From positions 1 through 45,747 of the forward strand of contig CAJXQU010000018.1 in assembly GCA_913058255.1 (NCBI GenBank): a stretch of DNA of 45,747 bases. Direction: 5' to 3'. Below the pieces are notes generated by a model. It saw only the letters and a list, made by a program, of their open reading frames with translations. It was not told the DNA's origin and made no database searches. The stretch's first letter is position 1, and the number at the start of each line of letters is the position of its first letter. The position numbers were made by a program, and so were the translations under genes. Shown here piece by piece: positions 35,764-45,747 of this stretch. The stretch is from an uncultured Pseudomonadota bacterium (lineage in GTDB: Bacteria > Pseudomonadota > Gammaproteobacteria > CAJXQU01).

Positions 35764-36802
35764 ACTAAAAAATATTGCCGTCAGCTTTTCGGGCAAAACT
35801 ATTATTAAGGACATCAGCTTAAGCCTTGATCGTGGCCAAATTGGTTGTCTTTTAGGTCCCAGTGGTTGTGGCAAAACAACATTGCTACGAACGATTGCTG
35901 GTTTCGAATTACCAACAACCGGTCAAATTTATATTGGTGGCAAAGAAGTCAGCCATGAAGGCTGGGCGAAAGCGCCAGAGCAACGACGAGTTGGTATGGT
36001 CTTTCAGGATTTTGCGTTGTTCCCTCACCTAAACGTTAATGACAACATAGCCTTTGGTTTAAAAGGTATGAGTCGTGATGAGAAAAATGGTCGAGTAAAT
36101 AGCTTATTACAAATGGTAGGCTTGCCCGACTCAGGAAACGTATTTCCACATCAACTCTCTGGGGGTCAACAACAACGCGTTGCCTTAGCTCGCGCACTTG
36201 CCCCCAAACCAGAAGTTTTATTACTCGACGAACCTTTTTCAAGCATGGATTCAGAACTCCGCCAACAGGTTGCGTTCGACGTTTTGGAGATTCTTAGACA
36301 TGCAGATATCACCACCATATTCGTCACCCATGATCAATCCGAAGCATTCACCCTAGCCGATGAAATCGGTGTAATGCACTCTGGACAATTGCAACAATGG
36401 GATAGTGCTTATGAACTTTACTATAAACCAAGTAACCATTTTGTTGCTGATTTCATAGGTAGTGGTGAGTTTATTTCAGGAATTGTGGTCGATAAAGATC
36501 GAGTAGCTACTGGACTAGGCGTTATACATTGCACATCTGCTGAAAGCTTCAAAATAAATGATAACGTCGAAATTCTGATCCGTCCTAACGACATCACCTT
36601 CGATCAATCTGCAGAAATACGTGCCAGAGTACTCACTAAAAAGTTTCGAGGTGAAACATTTAATTATGATCTCCAGCTACCAGATGGCAGTATTATTCTA
36701 TGCACTAGCCCGAGTCGAAGTAATTACGCGATCAATGATGAGTTAGGAATAAAACTAGAAACTAAAAACCTGGTTGCTTTCGCCCGAAAAACAAGCATTT
36801 GA
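35750..36802 (+). CDS. fbpC: Ferric-iron ABC transporter ATP-binding protein (FbpC)
   Basis: A 350-residue ATPase. Walker A GPSGCGKTT, Q-loop VFQDFALFPHL, signature LSGGQQQRVALARAL, Walker B VLLLDEPFS and H-loop FVTHDQSEAF are all present. The C-terminal ~110 residues form the TOBE-like regulatory domain (NVEILIRPNDITF). The gene starts inside the end of fbpB, so the subunits are made in coupling. It powers uptake of Fe3+ from FbpA. Confidence 0.97.
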   Translation: MKQLELKNIAVSFSGKTIIKDISLSLDRGQIGCLLGPSGCGKTTLLRTIAGFELPTTGQIYIGGKEVSHEGWAKAPEQRRVGMVFQDFALFPHLNVNDNIAFGLKGMSRDEKNGRVNSLLQMVGLPDSGNVFPHQLSGGQQQRVALARALAPKPEVLLLDEPFSSMDSELRQQVAFDVLEILRHADITTIFVTHDQSEAFTLADEIGVMHSGQLQQWDSAYELYYKPSNHFVADFIGSGEFISGIVVDKDRVATGLGVIHCTSAESFKINDNVEILIRPNDITFDQSAEIRARVLTKKFRGETFNYDLQLPDGSIILCTSPSRSNYAINDELGIKLETKNLVAFARKTSI

Positions 36803-37054
36803 TCATCATTAATAGTCCCACAAATACTAATTATAACTAACACTGCTCACTGAAATTATTAGCTTTCATATTTAACCCGTTAATACCCTGTTACAAAATC
36901 TATTTTGTATTGCCTGTCTCTGAATAGAATACCAATTCAATTTTATTCTTCACTTTCAATGTCCTAAACTTGATGACTTGCTGGATTAATAATCACGTTT
37001 CATTAACAGCTTAATCTTTTTAAGATTTTCTCAGCTATTCATTTGAACTTAAGG

Positions 37055-37216
37055 TTACTTTGTTAGAATTAACTTTCCATTCCTTGTAATACGTAACTGA
37101 TAGTACTCACCGTGATGTTCAATGAGCACTTCTTTTCCACCCTGAAAAATATCTGATGTAGAAAAATATCGTTTATTTTGTTCAACACTTGAAGCTGACA
37201 ATGGTTGTGTTTTCAT
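37055..37216 (-). CDS. hemP: Hemin uptake protein HemP
   Basis: A 53-residue protein with the HemP family signature: [20 protein letters not shown], then [16 protein letters not shown] at the very C-terminus. HemP/HmuP proteins are small and often act with Fur to switch on heme-receptor genes. AAAGGA lies 8 nt before ATG. No heme receptor is in the window, so it stands apart. A Fur-box promoter is found nearly 285 bp upstream, with a structured leader between. Confidence 0.93.
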
Positions 37217-37312
37217 TATTTTTTCCTTTTAATAATTTAAAAAGTGCTCCACTCACTCTCTGATAAACGGCATAAAATTCATTTCAAATTATTTTAAAAA
37301 AATATTTAATAG

Positions 37313-37370
37313 CCAGAGCTTAAAGTTCAAAAAGGTGGATCATCCGACCGATGATCCACAAGAGCTCTGG
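37313..37370 (-). terminator. Nested hairpin with T-run in the hemP leader
   Basis: A perfect 10-bp stem (GTGGATCATC with GATGATCCAC, 5-nt loop; 37335-37359) is followed on the minus strand by CTTTTT, so it could stop transcription about 110 bp before hemP. An outer perfect 8-bp pair (CCAGAGCT with AGCTCTGG; 37313-37320 and 37363-37370) encloses the stem and the T-run, a feature not usual for simple terminators. Confidence 0.65.
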
Positions 37371-37490
37371 AGAAAGACAGAAGAGAAGAGAGAGTGATCT
37401 CTACTGTCACATTAGCTACTACGTCTGTTTTACGAGACTTCGTCATAGAGAATCTAATTCGGTTAAATAATTCATCTTGACTTAGCAGCT
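37325..37490 (-). ncRNA. Candidate Fur-controlled small RNA or hemP leader RNA
   Basis: From the promoter at 37498-37526 to the hairpin T-run at about 37330 would be a transcript of roughly 160 nt, starved-for-iron induced, of RyhB/PrrF size. It might instead be only the leader of hemP, with partial termination. I cannot show complementarity to a target by eye. Confidence 0.4.
37327..37446 (-). CDS. Possible 39-codon leader ORF
   Basis: It begins ATG ACG AAG at 37446, encodes MTKSRKTDVVANVTVEITLS followed by a hydrophobic segment and the end VDHRSDDPPF, and its last codons cover the hairpin. Its ribosome site is weak. If translated, ribosomes would disrupt the terminator stem, as in attenuation. 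I do not recognise the peptide. Confidence 0.25.
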   Translation of the reverse strand: MTKSRKTDVVANVTVEITLSSLLSFSRALVDHRSDDPPF

Positions 37491-37497
37491 ATTAATA

Positions 37498-37526
37498 ATG
37501 ATAATGATTCTCATTGCATTAGTCAA
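37498..37526 (-). promoter_or_regulatory. Fur-box promoter of the hemP leader
   Basis: On the minus strand TTGACT (37521-37526), 17-bp spacer, TATCAT (37498-37503). The Fur box GATAATGATTCTCATTGCA (37500-37518) overlaps spacer and -10; it is the best Fur match in the window. Confidence 0.8.
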
Positions 37527-37645
37527 GCATAAATATTTATGAATTTTGGCTATAAACAGAGTACTTACGCTTACACGTCCAACACTCTTTAACTTAGGGT
37601 ATGACTAACAGCTCACTCTTTAGTTACTGACAGTAGGATTCACTC

Positions 37646-37738
37646 ATGGTTTATGTGACAAACAACAATCTATTTATACAAAAACAACATTACGATAATG
37701 ACTTATTGGACTATTACAAGAAACTCAAAAAATGTTGA
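37646..37738 (+). CDS. Possible 30-codon ORF upstream of the NiSOD genes
   Basis: ATG at 37646 with TAGGA 7 nt before; the peptide is MVYVTNNNLF followed by a polar tail ending KKLKKC. No family known. A chance frame is possible; conservation alone could settle it. The rest of 37527-37805 holds no other gene that I can support. Confidence 0.25.
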   Translation: MVYVTNNNLFIQKQHYDNDLLDYYKKLKKC

Positions 37739-37805
37739 TCTTAACTATGTCACTTGATTTAACCCTTAGAAAAACTTTCTTTTATATAACGCTTATAGAT
37801 ATCTC

Positions 37806-38030
37806 TTGAAAAATTTTTCCCTTATATATAGCAGCTTGTGCACTATTCTTTTTGCGACAACTGCTTCAGCGCGCCCAGAACTTGAGACAAACCTCTGGAT
37901 AAGTCCATTTATTCACTCTATTATCTTAGCCCTTATGGCCGTACTATTAGCAGTTGGTATCGACTGGTTAATAAACCGACTGTCCTTAAGTAACCACACT
38001 AAAAATAGGAAAAAGAATCATGCTACATAA
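37806..38030 (+). CDS. Small membrane protein overlapping the NiSOD gene
   Basis: A 74-residue protein that starts at TTG. Residues 1-22 look like a signal peptide (cut near ASA-R), and residues 31-53 are a strong membrane helix (SIILALMAVLLAVGIDWLI); a basic tail ends it. It overlaps sodN by 11 bp, so translation is likely coupled. I know of no standard NiSOD partner of this type; a role in nickel entry or membrane tethering of SodX is speculation. AT-rich upstream sequence has no clear ribosome site. Confidence 0.6.
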   Translation: MKNFSLIYSSLCTILFATTASARPELETNLWISPFIHSIILALMAVLLAVGIDWLINRLSLSNHTKNRKKNHAT

Positions 38031-38520
38031 AATATTAGCCACGCTAGATAAATCTATAAATTTTGAAACTGCCTCTGCGCATTGCGATGTCCCTTGTGGT
38101 ATTTACGACCCAAGTACAGCTCAAATCGCTGCTTTGACTGTTATCCGTATGCTTGATCAAATTAAAGAACTTGCTGATAAAGATTCTTTAACAATTGCAG
38201 ATCACGCTAAACTTTCTCGCTTAGTGGCTCAAAAAGAAGAGCATGCTGAAGTTGTTAAAAAAGAAGTTCGCATCACCTGGGGTGATTACTTCAAACAACC
38301 ACAATTTGATCAAGTTCCAGGCATTCATGAACTTGTACACAACATTATGCTAACTGGTTCTAAATGTCGCCAAACCATTGATCAAGAAAATGGTCTAGCA
38401 CTATTGAAATTGGTTAATGAGTTTGCAGAAGCATTCTGGAAAACTAAAGGTGTAGAAACTTACACAGCAACTTGCCCATATCCACCAGCACAACAAGTTG
38501 TATATCCTAAGTTAGGATAA
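38020..38520 (+). CDS. sodN: Nickel superoxide dismutase
   Basis: A 166-residue NiSOD precursor. The nickel hook HCDVPCGIY lies at residues 21-29: after removal of a 20-residue leader (cut TASA-H), His1, Cys2 and Cys6 of the mature form bind Ni, with Pro5 and Tyr9 conserved. The rest is the four-helix bundle (EEHAEVVKKEVRITWGDYF, then PGIHELVHNIMLTGSKCR). It turns superoxide into O2 and H2O2 in the cytosol without iron or manganese, which suits an iron-starved cell. The protease SodX is encoded 9 bp downstream. Confidence 0.97.
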   Translation: MLHKILATLDKSINFETASAHCDVPCGIYDPSTAQIAALTVIRMLDQIKELADKDSLTIADHAKLSRLVAQKEEHAEVVKKEVRITWGDYFKQPQFDQVPGIHELVHNIMLTGSKCRQTIDQENGLALLKLVNEFAEAFWKTKGVETYTATCPYPPAQQVVYPKLG

Positions 38521-38529
38521 GATCAGTTC

Positions 38530-38835
38530 ATGATCGGTATTGTAAAAATACATGGGCAAAGCATGGCTCCAGCCCTATCGGGGGGTGACTTTGTTGTCAC
38601 CTCTCGTTATTACCGCAAACTATCCACCAACGATCTTATAATTTTTAAGCATCCAATCTATGGCCGTTTGATCAAACGGATTAAAAAAATAGATCGACTC
38701 GGTAATATTTGGGTTCGTGGTGAAAATAAATACAGCCTCTCCTCAGAACAAATGGGCATCGTCGCGCCTAGTATGGTTCAAGCTAAGGTTCTTTTCCCCA
38801 TCAGACAAAGACAGTCATTACGCTTAAAAATCTGA
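38530..38835 (+). CDS. sodX: NiSOD maturation protease SodX (S26 family)
   Basis: A 101-residue signal-peptidase-like enzyme. The catalytic serine is in IHGQSMAPALSGGDFV (Ser11) and the lysine in YGRLIKRIKKID; NIWVRGENKYSLSSEQMG is the family's C-terminal box. It trims the SodN leader so that the histidine that binds nickel becomes the N-terminus. It lacks a membrane anchor, as usual for SodX, and follows sodN directly. Confidence 0.95.
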   Translation: MIGIVKIHGQSMAPALSGGDFVVTSRYYRKLSTNDLIIFKHPIYGRLIKRIKKIDRLGNIWVRGENKYSLSSEQMGIVAPSMVQAKVLFPIRQRQSLRLKI

Positions 38836-39081
38836 TCAGGTTCATTCCTTCTCGTTCAAAACTTCTTTTCTAAATAAACTGCACCGCTAGAAAACACTGC
38901 AGCAATCTCACTACAAGTAGTCACTTGTACGCTCTAACCTTAGTTATGTCAGTCCATTAAAGACATGATGAGATCATGAAAGTTAACATGAAATGGTTCA
39001 AATATTTTTGAACTATATTTGTTCTCAGAAATAACCCCTAACCTCATGATTTTTTAAAGATTAATACCGAAAAATACTCAC
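38836..39081 (+). promoter_or_regulatory. Upstream region of the giant surface gene: three palindromes
   Basis: No gene is seen here. Three inverted repeats occur: TACAAGT-AGTC-ACTTGTA (38912-38929), CATGAT-GAG-ATCATG (38964-38978) and GTTCAAA-TATT-TTTGAAC (38996-39013). They lie about 70-195 bp upstream of a sigma-54 promoter, where enhancer-binding activators usually bind. Confidence 0.5.
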
Positions 39082-39097
39082 TGGCATCATCCTTGCT
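39082..39097 (+). promoter_or_regulatory. Sigma-54 promoter of the giant surface gene
   Basis: TGGCATCATCCTTGCT matches the -24/-12 consensus TGGCAC-N5-TTGCW, with GG and GC separated by exactly 10 bases and only one deviation (T for C). Transcription would begin near 39107, 30 bp before the ATG. GAAAGGGAAA supplies the ribosome site. Confidence 0.8.
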
Positions 39098-39139
39098 TAA
39101 GCCTACCCCAGTCTAAATTTTTTAAGAAAGGGAAACTAC

Positions 39140-42100
39140 ATGTTTAAACATCTTCAACATCTTGCTAAAGCAACGCTCACTTCAATTCTGCTGGTAACAC
39201 CACTCGCCGCACAAGCCGTAGTGGACATGAATATTTCGAGTTTTACGGCCAACCCAAACCCAGTCACATCAGGTGGTGAGTTTCACTATCTGTTATCCGT
39301 GGAGAACAGCGGTAATGAAGATGCACCTGACGCTAACTTGACTATTACGATCCCATCAGGCGCCACCGTCACTAATCTGTCTCCAGGTGTTTGTACAGGA
39401 ACTAGCCCCGTACTTTGTGACTTTGGCACGTTAACCGGAACGCTTGCTGGCGGCTCTCCGATCAACGTTGATATTACGATGACTGCAACGAGTGCTGGTC
39501 CTGCATCGCTCAGCTCAACAGCAACGGTTTCGACGTCGGCCACGGATGGCAATAACGGGAATGACTCTCTTACACAAGGAACCACGGTCAACCGAGGTTC
39601 TGATCTGTCCATTTCTTTCAATGCTTCATCCGCAACAACAGCCAGCGGTGGTTCTACTTTCGCATATGTAGTTGATGTTGCTAATGGTGGGCCGAATGAT
39701 ACTGATGATGAAAAAGTAATTCTTACTCTACCTCCACAGGTGAGCTATACGACAAGTAGTGGTTCTGGCTGGAGTTGTAGTGCTGCAGGTCAAATAATCA
39801 CTTGTAATCGATCAGCGACCTTAGTTAATGGTTCAACAGCTCCTCCTCTGACAGTTAATGCACAAGTGACTGGAAGCTCACTTGGGACTTTTACTGCGCT
39901 TGCAACTGTCAGTTCTACTACCGCTGATGGTGATGCAAATAACAATTCAGCAACGCATGACGTTCAAGTCTCTGCTGGAGCGGATATGGCCATCAATAAA
40001 TCTGTCTTACCTATACCTGTTGTCGCTGAGCAACCCGTCACTTTTACTTTAAGCGTGACTAATAATGGTCCAATGTCTTCAGACGCTGTTGTGGTAACTG
40101 ATACTTTGCCAGCTAATTACACGGCGATCAGTGCTTCAGGTTCAGGCTGGACCTGTAATGTAGTCGGTCAGACAGTTACCTGTGATGCAGATGCTTCATT
40201 GGCTCAAGGTTCGGCACCAGCGATCACAATCAATGCTACCGCTCCGTCAAATGCAAACATACCAGCAGCGGGAACCTCTCATTCAAATACTGCAAGCTTG
40301 GTAAGCTCCACTCAGGATCCAATTCCTGAAAATGATTCAAAAACAATCAACTATAACATTGGTAGATACCATGCTGATCTGTCGATCACAAAATCTAAAA
40401 CACCCAACCCCGTGGCCCAAGGTAGCACGATGTCATCGTCTATCCGTGTCAAAAACAATGGACCCAGAAACGCTACAAATATTATTAAAGTCGAAGATAC
40501 ACTTGCAGCTGGTGAATCTTATAGCAGTGCATCACCAGGCACAGGAACTGGTTGGACTTGTAGCTACAACCAGGCAAACGATACCACCGGTGGTATCGTA
40601 ACTTGTACACATGCTGGCCCTCTTGCACTAAATGCCCAAACCCCTGTTTTGACCATTCCAACAAAAGCTGTTGCAACGGGCGCAATGCAAAATACAGCTT
40701 GTACTAGTACATCTGCAGGACAAGCTCCAAATGAATTTGATTTTAATGCTGCTAATGATTGTGTTACTGCTGGTGGTACGACTTCTACTAGTGGCACCGC
40801 GGATCTGGATCTCCTCAAAGTAGTTCAGGATCTTGCTCCCGGTAATAATGATGGCACTTTGCAAGATGATGAAAATACTCTCACATACACGCTGACAGTA
40901 ACAAACCGTAATGACACAGGTGACACAGGTGCAGATGCAACCAATGTTGTATTGAGTGATCCAATTCCGATGTATGCACCCAGCAATCCTAATTATGGAG
41001 TAACGGCCATCACAGCTACGCCGAGCCAGGGAGCAGCTTGTTCAATCGGTGCAACTATCACTTGTAACCTGGGCACAATTATAAATGGCGCCTCAGCCAA
41101 TGTAGTCATTACTGTTGCTCGCCCTATAAAAGATGGTCCATGGACGAACACTGCCACTGCATTTTCACAAAATGTTGGTGATCCAAATCGTGCAAATAAT
41201 ACAGCTTCTGCTTCAATAACAATTGAACCAGTTGCCGATGTTGCGGTAGAAAGCAAAGTTCAATCAGGTCCGATCAAAGCAGGTGTCGAAGCAACATATA
41301 TTATTAGCTTCAAGAACAGAGGTGTATCTAAGGCAGACAACATAGAAATAGTTGACACTTTCACCAATCTTAACGGCATGACTTATACCTTCATCAGTGC
41401 GAGCTCAACCTTGTCAGGTTCTGTCTGCACACATGATGTTCCGACGAGAAAAGTTACATGTACTGGAGGATCGCTTAACTCCGGTGAGTCAAAATCCCTC
41501 ACGGTCAAAATCCGACCTGATTACGGCACGAGCCTGATCTATCCATTAAATCTGGAAAATACGGCGACAATAACAACATCAACACTTGAGTCTGATGGTC
41601 TAGCAGGTGTGGTTAACCCGAATAACAGCCAGTCAGCAACATTGGTCGTTAACCCTCCTGAAGTTGACATTCTAGTGCAGAAAAAGGACTTAGTTGATCC
41701 TTTATTCTATGACTCTGCAACGGCATCAAATAATATCATTACTTATGAGATCAAGGTCACTAATCAAGGCCCATCTTATGGCACAGGTATTCAATTTATT
41801 GATACCTTAACACCTGCTACCGGTCAGACATTAACCTTTCTTTGCGATAAGGCTTTGCAGGGTGATAGCTGCACACCAGCGACTCCGGGGCAAGCCTGCA
41901 ACAATCAAAGCACAGTTATAAGCAGCCCAACAAGCATGACTTGTAATCTGCCCGATATGGAGACAGGCGCAACCACTTATCGTTATTTGGATTTTCGGGT
42001 GGACTCAGTTCCAACGGCCACTGGCTCTACTGTAAAAAACAATGTTACCGTTTCTTCTAACGAGGCCGAATCACTCGCTGGTAATAACACTGCCAGTGAC

Positions 42101-45100
42101 CAGACTACTGTTCGGATTCGTGCGGATGTTGAAGTCACGAGTAAAACTCCTGAGTTTGCAACTGTTAATGTTAATCAAACTTTCAATTGGACGATTGTTG
42201 TCACCAACAATGGTCCAGATATTTCTGAAGAAACAACACTTGGCGACACCCTGCCTGTTGGCATGATTCTGACTGGGCCTGCTGTCCCTGCACAAGGCAC
42301 CTGCCCTACGGGTATCGCTGGTGAAAGGGTGATCAGTTGTGATCTTGGGCTACTGAATGATGGTGCTTCTACGTCAATCACTGTGCCAGTTAAGATTACC
42401 AGCTTTGCAGCTTCATACAATAACACCGCAAGTGTAACGACATCTACGGTTGATCAGGTTTCTACCAATAACAGTAAAACCAACTCTGTTGCTGTACGAA
42501 AATCATCACTCGCAGGCTTCGTATATGAAGACAACAATAATGATGGCTCTAAAGGTGGCGGCGAAGCGGGTATCAACAACGTTTCACTTACGTTAAGCGG
42601 CACAGATCTTTATGGAAATGTTGTCTCAGGATCAGCGACTACTGATGGTACTGGTGCTTATAAATTCGACAATCTGCCTCCAAGTGATTCGACTGGTTAT
42701 ACCGTAACCGAAACACATCCGACTACCTATTTTGATGGCCTGGACAACAGTGCGGGAACGATTGTTGCGAACAGTAAAACTACTGATGTTATCAGTGCTA
42801 TTGCCGTTCCGGCTGGCTCTGATGTAACGGGTTACCTCTTTGGTGAATTGAAAAAATCATCTCTGACAGGTTTTGTCTTTAATGATATTGCCACTCCTGA
42901 TAACAATATTAAGGATGCTGGTGAACCAGGCATTCCGAATATTCCAGTAACGCTGACAGGTACAGATGACCTAGGCAATACGATTACACCTATCGTTGTT
43001 AACACAACTTCAACAGGTCAATTTATATTCCCTGATCTACGTCCGGGAACTTACACAATTACAGAAACAACACAGCCCCCGACCTTCACAGATGGCACAG
43101 ATACTGCCGGTGATCTGGGCGGCACAGTCGGCGCTGATGTGATCACGGCTATTCCTCTGCTTGCAGGTCAGGGTGGTGTGAATTATCTGTTTGCTGAAAC
43201 GGGTGTAGGTGGAAGTGTCCTGACTGGTATTGTTTATATCGATGTAAATGATAATGGCGTTCAAGATAGCGGCGAAACTGGTATTCCTGGTGTTAACGTC
43301 ACACTGTCCGGAACGGATATAGATGCCAACCCTGTCAATCTAACGCTTCCTACTGACAGTACTGGCGCTTTCACTTTCAGTGCTCTTGCTCCTAGCAACG
43401 GTGCAGGATACACCCTAACTGAAACACCTCCCGCGACTTACTTTGATGGACAGGAAAACTCCAGTGGTGTGATCATTCCAAATAGTAAAATCACTGATGT
43501 AATTACTAATATTAATGTTCCGTTAAACACGATCGTCACAGGCTACCTGTTTGGTGAACTGACAGGACGAGCAATCTCCGGTTTCGTTTATAACGATGGC
43601 AGTAATGATGGAACAAAAGATCCTGAAAACCCAGGCATAGAAAATGTCACGATTACGCTAACAGGAACAGATGATCTGGGTAATCCTGTGAATGAAGTAA
43701 CCACGACTGATGCCAATGGTGCTTATAGTTTTGCCGATTTACGTCCGGGTACTTATGCATTGCAGGAAACTCAGCCTGCTGGCTATCAGGATCATATCGA
43801 TACGGTTGGTCTGATCGATGCTGCGCCTGTGGGCACGCTACCGAGTAATACTGCCGATGATGTGATCAACGATATTATTTTGCCTGCTGATGGTGATGCT
43901 ACTGAATACAACTTTGCAGATTCTAATACTGCTATCTCAGGATTTGTTTATGTCGATGCCAATAACGATGGTGTTAAAGATGCTGGCGAAGCTGTTATTC
44001 AGGGCGTCACGCTGACACTGTCAGGCAACGACTCTAACAACAACCCTGTCAATCAAACTACAACGACTAATGCCACTGGTGCTTATAGCTTTACAGGCAT
44101 GCTCGCTAGTGATGCCAATGGTTATACAGTCACTGAAACACATCCGACAGCTTGGGCTGATGGTAAAGATACTGCAGGTAATGTTGGCGGTTCAACAGCC
44201 AGCAATGATCAAGTCAGCGGCATCATAATGACATCATCTACACGCGCGTCAGACTATAATTTTGGTGAGCTTGGTGCTTCATTATCCGGCATTGTCTACA
44301 ACGATAATGATGATAATGGCCAACAAGATCCTTCCGAACCGGGTATAGCCGGTGTCACAATTACACTGACAGGAACTGATCTAAACGGTTTTCCCGTCAG
44401 CTTCACAGCAGTAACTGGTGACAATGGTCTTTATCGTTTTAATAACTTACCACTTCCAAATAGTTCGGGGTACACGATCACAGAAACGCAACCTCCGGGC
44501 GTTGCGAATGGTAAAGAAAATCCTAGTAATGTGATTGCGGGGGTTCAAATAACAACACCGGACGTGGAAGGAACCGGTTTCAACTTTGGTGAAATCGTAC
44601 CTTCCGCCCAAACAGCTAGCATTTCAGGTAAGGTGCATGATCGTGATGATCCAAGCATTAGCTATGAGGGTTGGACAGTTGAAATCGTCAAAAACGGTAT
44701 TGTCATAGCAACGACCATTACTGATGCAAACAGTGATTATTTATTTGAAGGTTTGACGCCTGGGACTGGCTACACCATCCGTTTCCGTCATCCTGAAAGT
44801 AATACGATCTTTGGTGTGATTGAAAATGTCAGCCTAACAGCAAACACCCTGCTACCTGATCAAAACTTACCACTTGACCCTTCTGGTGTCGTTTATGACT
44901 CTGTCACTCGGCTACCAGTTCCGGGAGCAATCGTTACATTCTCAGGCCCTCCTGGGTTTAATCCAGCGGTCGATCTGATTGGTGGAGCAGCGAATGTTAA
45001 CCAAGTTGTTGGAGCAGATGGTTTATATAAATACCTATTAAACCCATCAGCGCCAGCGGGCGTATATAGCTTGTCCGTTACTCAACCAGCAGGTTATTTA

Positions 45101-45747
45101 CCACCGAACTCGCTGAATATTCCATCACCTTGTACAGGCACATTAACGGTAGGTGGGGTTCCCGCTCCAGCAGAAGTCCAACCACAGAACACAGCACCAA
45201 CAGGAACAGCTCCTTTTCATAGTCCTGCCAGCTGTCCTGCGCTGGGAGCTGCAGGCACTCAGTATTACTTGAGCTTCAACCTCAGTCCGGCATCGGCTGA
45301 TGTGATCAACAATCACATCCCTCTCGATCCAACGGGCCCGATTTCAGGCCTTACTGTTGTTAAATCGACTCCTAAAACTAATGTCATCCGTGGTGAACTT
45401 ATTCCTTACAGCATAAAAGTGACGAACAACCTTGCAACTCCAATCACCAATATCCGTATTCGCGATCAGATCCCTGCAGGGTTCAAATATGTAACTAACT
45501 CAGCAACACTTGATGGAACGCGTAGCGAACCTCAGATCAACACCCGTGAATTGACATGGCCAGTGCAAAACTATGCGGTTGGTGAGTCACACGAAGCGAA
45601 ATTGCTTTTAGTGGTCGGTGCTGGTGTAGGCGAAGGTGAATACGCCAACCAGGCTTGGGGCATTAACGGACTGACAGGAGCAACAGCGACAGCTATTGCA
45701 AATGCAACTGTCCGAATCATTCCTGATCCGACGTTTGATTGCTCTGA
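39140..45747 (+). CDS. Giant secreted surface protein with DUF11 and SdrD-B repeats (3' partial)
   Basis: Open for 2202 codons to the window edge with no stop. Signal peptide 1-26 (LAAQA-V). Eight DUF11 domains start near residues 27, 152, 282, 412, 553, 698, 841 and 994, with the usual VTNNGP and TC pairs. Six SdrD-B/Cna-B-like repeats (about 1122-1800) open with GFVY-D-NNDG-KD-GE-GI calcium-loop motifs; a divergent seventh starts near 1826. Another DUF11 domain starts near 2068. Such proteins are exported and often sit beside a large OmpA-type partner; the missing end prevents a check. It is probably an adhesin or cell-surface fibre. Minus-strand frames inside it are shadows. Confidence 0.95.
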   Translation, partial: MFKHLQHLAKATLTSILLVTPLAAQAVVDMNISSFTANPNPVTSGGEFHYLLSVENSGNEDAPDANLTITIPSGATVTNLSPGVCTGTSPVLCDFGTLTGTLAGGSPINVDITMTATSAGPASLSSTATVSTSATDGNNGNDSLTQGTTVNRGSDLSISFNASSATTASGGSTFAYVVDVANGGPNDTDDEKVILTLPPQVSYTTSSGSGWSCSAAGQIITCNRSATLVNGSTAPPLTVNAQVTGSSLGTFTALATVSSTTADGDANNNSATHDVQVSAGADMAINKSVLPIPVVAEQPVTFTLSVTNNGPMSSDAVVVTDTLPANYTAISASGSGWTCNVVGQTVTCDADASLAQGSAPAITINATAPSNANIPAAGTSHSNTASLVSSTQDPIPENDSKTINYNIGRYHADLSITKSKTPNPVAQGSTMSSSIRVKNNGPRNATNIIKVEDTLAAGESYSSASPGTGTGWTCSYNQANDTTGGIVTCTHAGPLALNAQTPVLTIPTKAVATGAMQNTACTSTSAGQAPNEFDFNAANDCVTAGGTTSTSGTADLDLLKVVQDLAPGNNDGTLQDDENTLTYTLTVTNRNDTGDTGADATNVVLSDPIPMYAPSNPNYGVTAITATPSQGAACSIGATITCNLGTIINGASANVVITVARPIKDGPWTNTATAFSQNVGDPNRANNTASASITIEPVADVAVESKVQSGPIKAGVEATYIISFKNRGVSKADNIEIVDTFTNLNGMTYTFISASSTLSGSVCTHDVPTRKVTCTGGSLNSGESKSLTVKIRPDYGTSLIYPLNLENTATITTSTLESDGLAGVVNPNNSQSATLVVNPPEVDILVQKKDLVDPLFYDSATASNNIITYEIKVTNQGPSYGTGIQFIDTLTPATGQTLTFLCDKALQGDSCTPATPGQACNNQSTVISSPTSMTCNLPDMETGATTYRYLDFRVDSVPTATGSTVKNNVTVSSNEAESLAGNNTASDQTTVRIRADVEVTSKTPEFATVNVNQTFNWTIVVTNNGPDISEETTLGDTLPVGMILTGPAVPAQGTCPTGIAGERVISCDLGLLNDGASTSITVPVKITSFAASYNNTASVTTSTVDQVSTNNSKTNSVAVRKSSLAGFVYEDNNNDGSKGGGEAGINNVSLTLSGTDLYGNVVSGSATTDGTGAYKFDNLPPSDSTGYTVTETHPTTYFDGLDNSAGTIVANSKTTDVISAIAVPAGSDVTGYLFGELKKSSLTGFVFNDIATPDNNIKDAGEPGIPNIPVTLTGTDDLGNTITPIVVNTTSTGQFIFPDLRPGTYTITETTQPPTFTDGTDTAGDLGGTVGADVITAIPLLAGQGGVNYLFAETGVGGSVLTGIVYIDVNDNGVQDSGETGIPGVNVTLSGTDIDANPVNLTLPTDSTGAFTFSALAPSNGAGYTLTETPPATYFDGQENSSGVIIPNSKITDVITNINVPLNTIVTGYLFGELTGRAISGFVYNDGSNDGTKDPENPGIENVTITLTGTDDLGNPVNEVTTTDANGAYSFADLRPGTYALQETQPAGYQDHIDTVGLIDAAPVGTLPSNTADDVINDIILPADGDATEYNFADSNTAISGFVYVDANNDGVKDAGEAVIQGVTLTLSGNDSNNNPVNQTTTTNATGAYSFTGMLASDANGYTVTETHPTAWADGKDTAGNVGGSTASNDQVSGIIMTSSTRASDYNFGELGASLSGIVYNDNDDNGQQDPSEPGIAGVTITLTGTDLNGFPVSFTAVTGDNGLYRFNNLPLPNSSGYTITETQPPGVANGKENPSNVIAGVQITTPDVEGTGFNFGEIVPSAQTASISGKVHDRDDPSISYEGWTVEIVKNGIVIATTITDANSDYLFEGLTPGTGYTIRFRHPESNTIFGVIENVSLTANTLLPDQNLPLDPSGVVYDSVTRLPVPGAIVTFSGPPGFNPAVDLIGGAANVNQVVGADGLYKYLLNPSAPAGVYSLSVTQPAGYLPPNSLNIPSPCTGTLTVGGVPAPAEVQPQNTAPTGTAPFHSPASCPALGAAGTQYYLSFNLSPASADVINNHIPLDPTGPISGLTVVKSTPKTNVIRGELIPYSIKVTNNLATPITNIRIRDQIPAGFKYVTNSATLDGTRSEPQINTRELTWPVQNYAVGESHEAKLLLVVGAGVGEGEYANQAWGINGLTGATATAIANATVRIIPDPTFDCS
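42506..44617 (+). repeat. Six tandem SdrD-B-like coding repeats (~355 bp period)
   Basis: Repeat starts are near 42506, 42857, 43214, 43569, 43931 and 44279, so periods are 351, 357, 355, 362 and 348 bp (about 118 residues). Each unit has an LxGxVYxDxNxDG opening, an LTGTD strand, GAYxFxxLxPG and a GYTVTET segment. The units are diverged, so recent duplication is not suggested. Confidence 0.9.

Follow-up and report, generated by a model that had tools for sequence, protein, structure and literature searches.

A predicted sigma-54 promoter before a giant surface protein gene in a little-known gammaproteobacterial genus

How is a very large surface protein switched on in an uncultured gammaproteobacterium? 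The stretch of DNA analyzed here, the window, is 45,747 nucleotides long and ends inside a giant gene, which is separated from its upstream neighbor by 304 bp containing a sigma-54-like element and three palindromes. A sigma-54 promoter acts as a switch that is off until an activator protein fires. The locus raises three questions: whether the giant gene is transcribed from such a promoter, which activator would fire it, and whether the palindromes take part.

The giant gene and the element before it

The N-terminus of the giant protein has, by eye, a Sec-type signal sequence, and its repeat arrays (DUF11 x9, SdrD_B x7) score above the cut-offs. The natural reading of such a sequence is a fibrillar surface protein, whose function would be surface attachment. 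The sequence-only reading had called it an adhesin of more than 2200 residues. The length is borne out by the open reading frame, which runs off the contig end (Table 1). A surface location is suggested by the signal and repeats, and adhesion is plausible from the repeat domains. The complete homologue in G001, which with G002 makes up the other two genomes of the genus (the genome containing the window is G000), has ~2160 aa, and its gene overlaps the next one, encoding a 1393-aa OmpA-domain protein. A search for solved-structure relatives of this downstream partner returned the OmpA domain only. The complete G001 homologue gave no match to a CTERM tail; the C-terminus of the window copy lies beyond the contig end.

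SdrD-B and DUF11 repeats are also found in the staphylococcal MSCRAMM SdrD/SdrC and DUF11 fibrillar proteins. The giant protein, however, is that of a Gram-negative bacterium, and a further difference lies in G001, where the giant gene overlaps that of the following OmpA-domain protein. MSCRAMM (SdrC/SdrD) membership was rejected, the full-length family score being 178.9 bits against a curated cut-off of 2500.

The -24/-12 element before the gene is TGGCATCATCCTTGCT, with GG at 39083-39084 and GC at 39095-39096. No other GG-N10-GC occurs on the + strand within the 304 bp between the genes, and 42 nt separate the element from the ATG at 39140; an exact GG-N10-GC had been noticed there from the sequence alone, with the gap given as 43. 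The exact spacing is set in a TGGCA and TTGCT context, and of the 12 positions fixed in the consensus TGGCACG-N4-TTGCW the element matches 10. The loose consensus with two mismatches has three matches in the window against seven expected. As such matches are expected several times per window, the match by itself is weak proof. The strict pattern TGGCAYN5TTGCW occurs 17 times in the 2.78-Mb genome, compared to once for the reversed pattern used as a control. No intrinsic-terminator-like site was found in 38700-39200, and no Rfam element in 36800-39400.

Table 1. Features of the window around the start of the giant gene
Feature	Position	Strand	Remarks
Nickel superoxide dismutase SodN, upstream neighbor	38020..38520	+	above NCBIfam cut-off
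SodX-like nickel-SOD maturation protease, upstream neighbor	38530..38835	+	below curated cut-off
Inverted repeat TACAAGT-AGTC-ACTTGTA (7-4-7)	38912..38929		centre ~-187 from predicted start; putative function
Inverted repeat CATGAT-GAG-ATCATG (6-3-6)	38964..38978		centre ~-137; putative function
Inverted repeat GTTCAAA-TATT-TTTGAAC (7-4-7)	38996..39013		centre ~-103; putative function
Short stretch 5' of the promoter, roughly alignable to relatives	39053..39081	+	homology ends near left edge (approximate)
Sigma-54 -24/-12 element	39082..39097	+	predicted transcription start near 39108
AAAGGG, ribosome-binding-site-like	39127..39132	+	from sequence; 7 nt before ATG
Giant surface protein gene (A-type)	39140..45745	+	at least 2202 aa, open at contig end; signal peptide, DUF11 and SdrD-B repeats

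The element has the spacing and context of a sigma-54 promoter, the right orientation and distance to the gene, a genome that encodes RpoN, and counterparts in the congeners. From these features we infer, with a probability of about 0.86, that sigma-54 RNA polymerase transcribes the giant gene from 39082-39097, starting near 39108. Well-placed sigma-54 sites in RpoN-bearing genomes are highly likely to be genuine (PMC3162934). That the GG-N10-GC is a chance match in a gene using an ordinary promoter is very improbable: sites with two mismatches to the consensus are expected in a window of this size, but the strict form is rare, is correctly placed and oriented and is kept in both congeners, and no sigma-70-like promoter was found in 38700-39200.

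In the proposed mechanism, the sigma-54 RNA polymerase would wait at the element as a closed complex. An AAA+ enhancer-binding protein, encoded elsewhere and bound upstream, would hydrolyze ATP and so open the complex. Because the closed complex needs an activator, the giant gene would be off by default and made on signal.

Conservation in the genus and a paralogue that differs

A homologous giant gene is present in both congeners. The G002 homologue is A-type and 73% identical over 907 aa; that of G001 is B-type and 41% identical. A sigma-54 element lies 48 nt before the start in both (TGGCATATTTCTTGCT in G001, TGGCATAACTCTTGCC in G002), the chance of such a site in 250 nt upstream being ~0.001 per gene as calculated from the measured site density. 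The element has been kept despite an old duplication into A and B forms and a difference in upstream neighbor. In G001 and G002 the giant gene does not follow sodN-sodX; it lies head to head with a gene whose product is, by eye, a von Willebrand A-type membrane protein, and sodN was not found in either genome. With only two congeners to compare, the conservation rests on three genes; upstream of the more distant homologue in genome G021 no such sigma-54 site was found.

Homology between the window copy and G002 extends only ~30 nt upstream of the element. Further upstream, at 48-49 nt from the sigma-54 element, TGGCGGCCA is common to the promoters of G001 and G002. This is a palindromic box between the von Willebrand-type and giant genes (loci L064 and L065), and it is missing from the window copy.

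A second giant gene copy, of the B type, is found in the same genome on contig C23. As in the congeners, it is head to head with a von Willebrand-type gene, and cheR-, cheV-, flgA- and PilZ-like genes (by eye) lie beside it. At the place aligned with the element it reads TTCTCTTAAAACTTCC, in which the GG and the G of the GC are both missing. Since this same-genome paralogue lacks the site, the family can do without sigma-54 control, and the C23 copy provides a natural control that lacks the promoter element in the same genome. Its locus (L066) reads TAGCGGCAG at the place equivalent to TGGCGGCCA.

Window positions 45693-45747 are identical to positions 1-55 of C23 in G000 (L066), so that both contigs end in the same 55 nt, which lie within coding sequence. 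The assembly yielded no gene for the OmpA-domain partner that comes after the giant gene in G001. The shared ends and the missing partner are likely explained by a two-copy repeat that collapsed at the assembly word length.

In evolutionary terms, the -24/-12 element is common to the A and B forms of the giant gene in the genus. It would have travelled with the A gene to its place behind sodN-sodX, or stayed while the neighbors changed, and in the B paralogue on C23 it would have been lost.

Sigma-54 machinery, regulon and candidate activators

The genome was surveyed by pattern and family searches plus selected stretches. It has a single rpoN, whose RpoN box (ARRTVAKYRE) is intact, and ten strong Sigma54_activat proteins, eight of which carry the GxFTG[A/G] loop. 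All ten are encoded on other contigs and none on the contig of the giant gene, in line with the earlier suggestion that the activator lies elsewhere.

About 10 of the 17 strict sites are intergenic and face a start codon within ~200 nt. Flagellar genes form the biggest group behind strict sites, which precede flrB-, flgE-, fliL- and fliK-like genes (flrB, flgE and fliL named by eye). The giant gene, an aldehyde dehydrogenase gene, two genes for VPLPA-CTERM-tailed surface proteins and a PilZ-like gene (by eye) also have strict sites before them, as does a short ORF with a second PilZ-like gene after it. A related variant of the site precedes glnA, which is in the same cluster as ntrC. The regulon as a whole tends toward flagella, pili, chemotaxis and surface proteins. 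The assignment of a sigma-54 promoter, made initially from the sequence by itself, is thus supported by RpoN, conservation in the congeners, enrichment of sites, the content of the regulon and the finding of no sigma-70-like site. In all three genomes of the genus, strict sites precede genes with VPLPA-CTERM-like tails (L002 and L004 in G000, L092 in G001, L107 in G002).

The lean of the regulon makes a surface or motility regulator a better candidate for the activator than NtrC. A flagellar regulator of the FlrA or FlrC type, which would link the giant protein to motility, is a possible but tentative choice: it agrees with the prevalence of flagellar genes behind strict sites and with the chemotaxis and flagellar neighbors of the C23 paralogue, but the G001 giant-gene locus does not adjoin flagellar genes and no upstream motif common to the giant and flagellar promoters was found. 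A search for such a motif across the giant, VPLPA, flagellar and PAS/PilZ promoters gave nothing convincing beyond shuffles. NtrC, which would tie the giant protein to nitrogen supply, is improbable; the genome encodes a true NtrC, and its gene clusters with a glnA bearing a sigma-54-like site, but nothing links the giant-gene locus to nitrogen genes. PrsR was rejected as the activator, the best TIGR02915 score among the ten activators being 380 bits against a cut-off of 502.6. The inducing condition, for which the sequence-only reading had offered attachment, nitrogen or flagellar state, would depend on which of the activators acts here.

Control of a large surface protein by RpoN is already known, and what is new is an additional conserved case. 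RpoN control of the large surface protein BapA has been reported in Burkholderia cenocepacia (PMC5552954). Like the giant gene, bapA encodes a large surface protein under RpoN control, and it is linked to biofilm; its RpoN dependence is experimental, whereas that of the giant gene is predicted from sequence. RpoN-dependent PEP-CTERM surface genes with a mapped start are also known (PMC9850573), as are PEP-CTERM genes with a sigma-54 promoter and PrsK/PrsR (PMC1569441, PMC9850573). That system resembles the present one in having a sigma-54 element shortly before genes for surface or exported proteins, and the VPLPA-CTERM genes behind sigma-54 sites and the two exosortases encoded in this genome add to the likeness. 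It differs in that the giant homologue of G001 has no CTERM tail and no activator here reaches the PrsR cut-off. A broader theme, also established, is that sigma-54 controls the exterior of the bacterial cell (PMC3162934). The present regulon of flagella, pili, surface proteins and glnA is of that kind, though the theme is a general one and not a family. The finding leaves the understanding of sigma-54 regulation unchanged; what it adds, from a gammaproteobacterial genus about which little is known, is a conserved case in which a very large surface protein is predicted to be under enhancer-dependent control.

The palindromes upstream of the promoter

The sequence-only reading had pointed out three perfect inverted repeats upstream of the promoter and taken them for enhancers. 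The repeats are exact, and their positions were right to within a base. By dinucleotide shuffles, the occurrence of three repeats of this kind within 304 bp has a P of 0.002 when the loop is limited to 3-4 nt, and of 0.04-0.06 when loops of 0-8 or 0-10 are allowed.

The palindromes probably belong to the sodN-sodX side of the region or are incidental, being transcript-end hairpins, sites of unrelated regulators or products of chance in AT-rich DNA. They lie just 3' of sodX and upstream of the boundary where homology with the relatives ends. Other 304-bp stretches of the window also contain three or more inverted repeats, and the gap 5' of sodN (36975-37300) is equally rich in perfect ones. Against hairpins at a transcript end speaks the terminator search, which found no intrinsic-terminator-like site in the region.

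It is unlikely that the palindromes instead serve as enhancers to which the activator of the giant-gene promoter binds. Their centers fall within the usual range for activator sites, and their symmetry is exact and significant with short loops. But the three sequences differ, so that a single activator would need to recognize all of them, and with free loops the significance becomes marginal. The promoters of G001 and G002 have none of the three. Near-copies (at most two mismatches) of the two longer palindromes occur genome-wide at or below the control level, 31 against 28 for the control and 12 against 24, and none of these copies lies beside another strict sigma-54 site; the proposed search for palindrome copies near other sigma-54 promoters was thus negative. 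The enhancer claim is left unsupported by the lack of conservation, the position beyond the homology boundary and the control-level near-copies. The palindromes may be sites for some regulator, with nothing connecting them to the giant-gene promoter.

In a further scenario, one ancestral sigma-54 core promoter would have been rewired in this species. The A gene would have kept the element and swapped its upstream region, losing TGGCGGCCA and gaining the three palindromes, the B paralogue would have lost the element, and the two giant proteins would be made under different conditions. This scenario is speculative and rather doubtful.

A copy of the TACAAGT palindrome with one mismatch is found at G000:C1:250902-250919 (L079:5903-5920), in a short gap within an MSHA-pilus-like cluster and one gene away from a sigma-54 activator gene.
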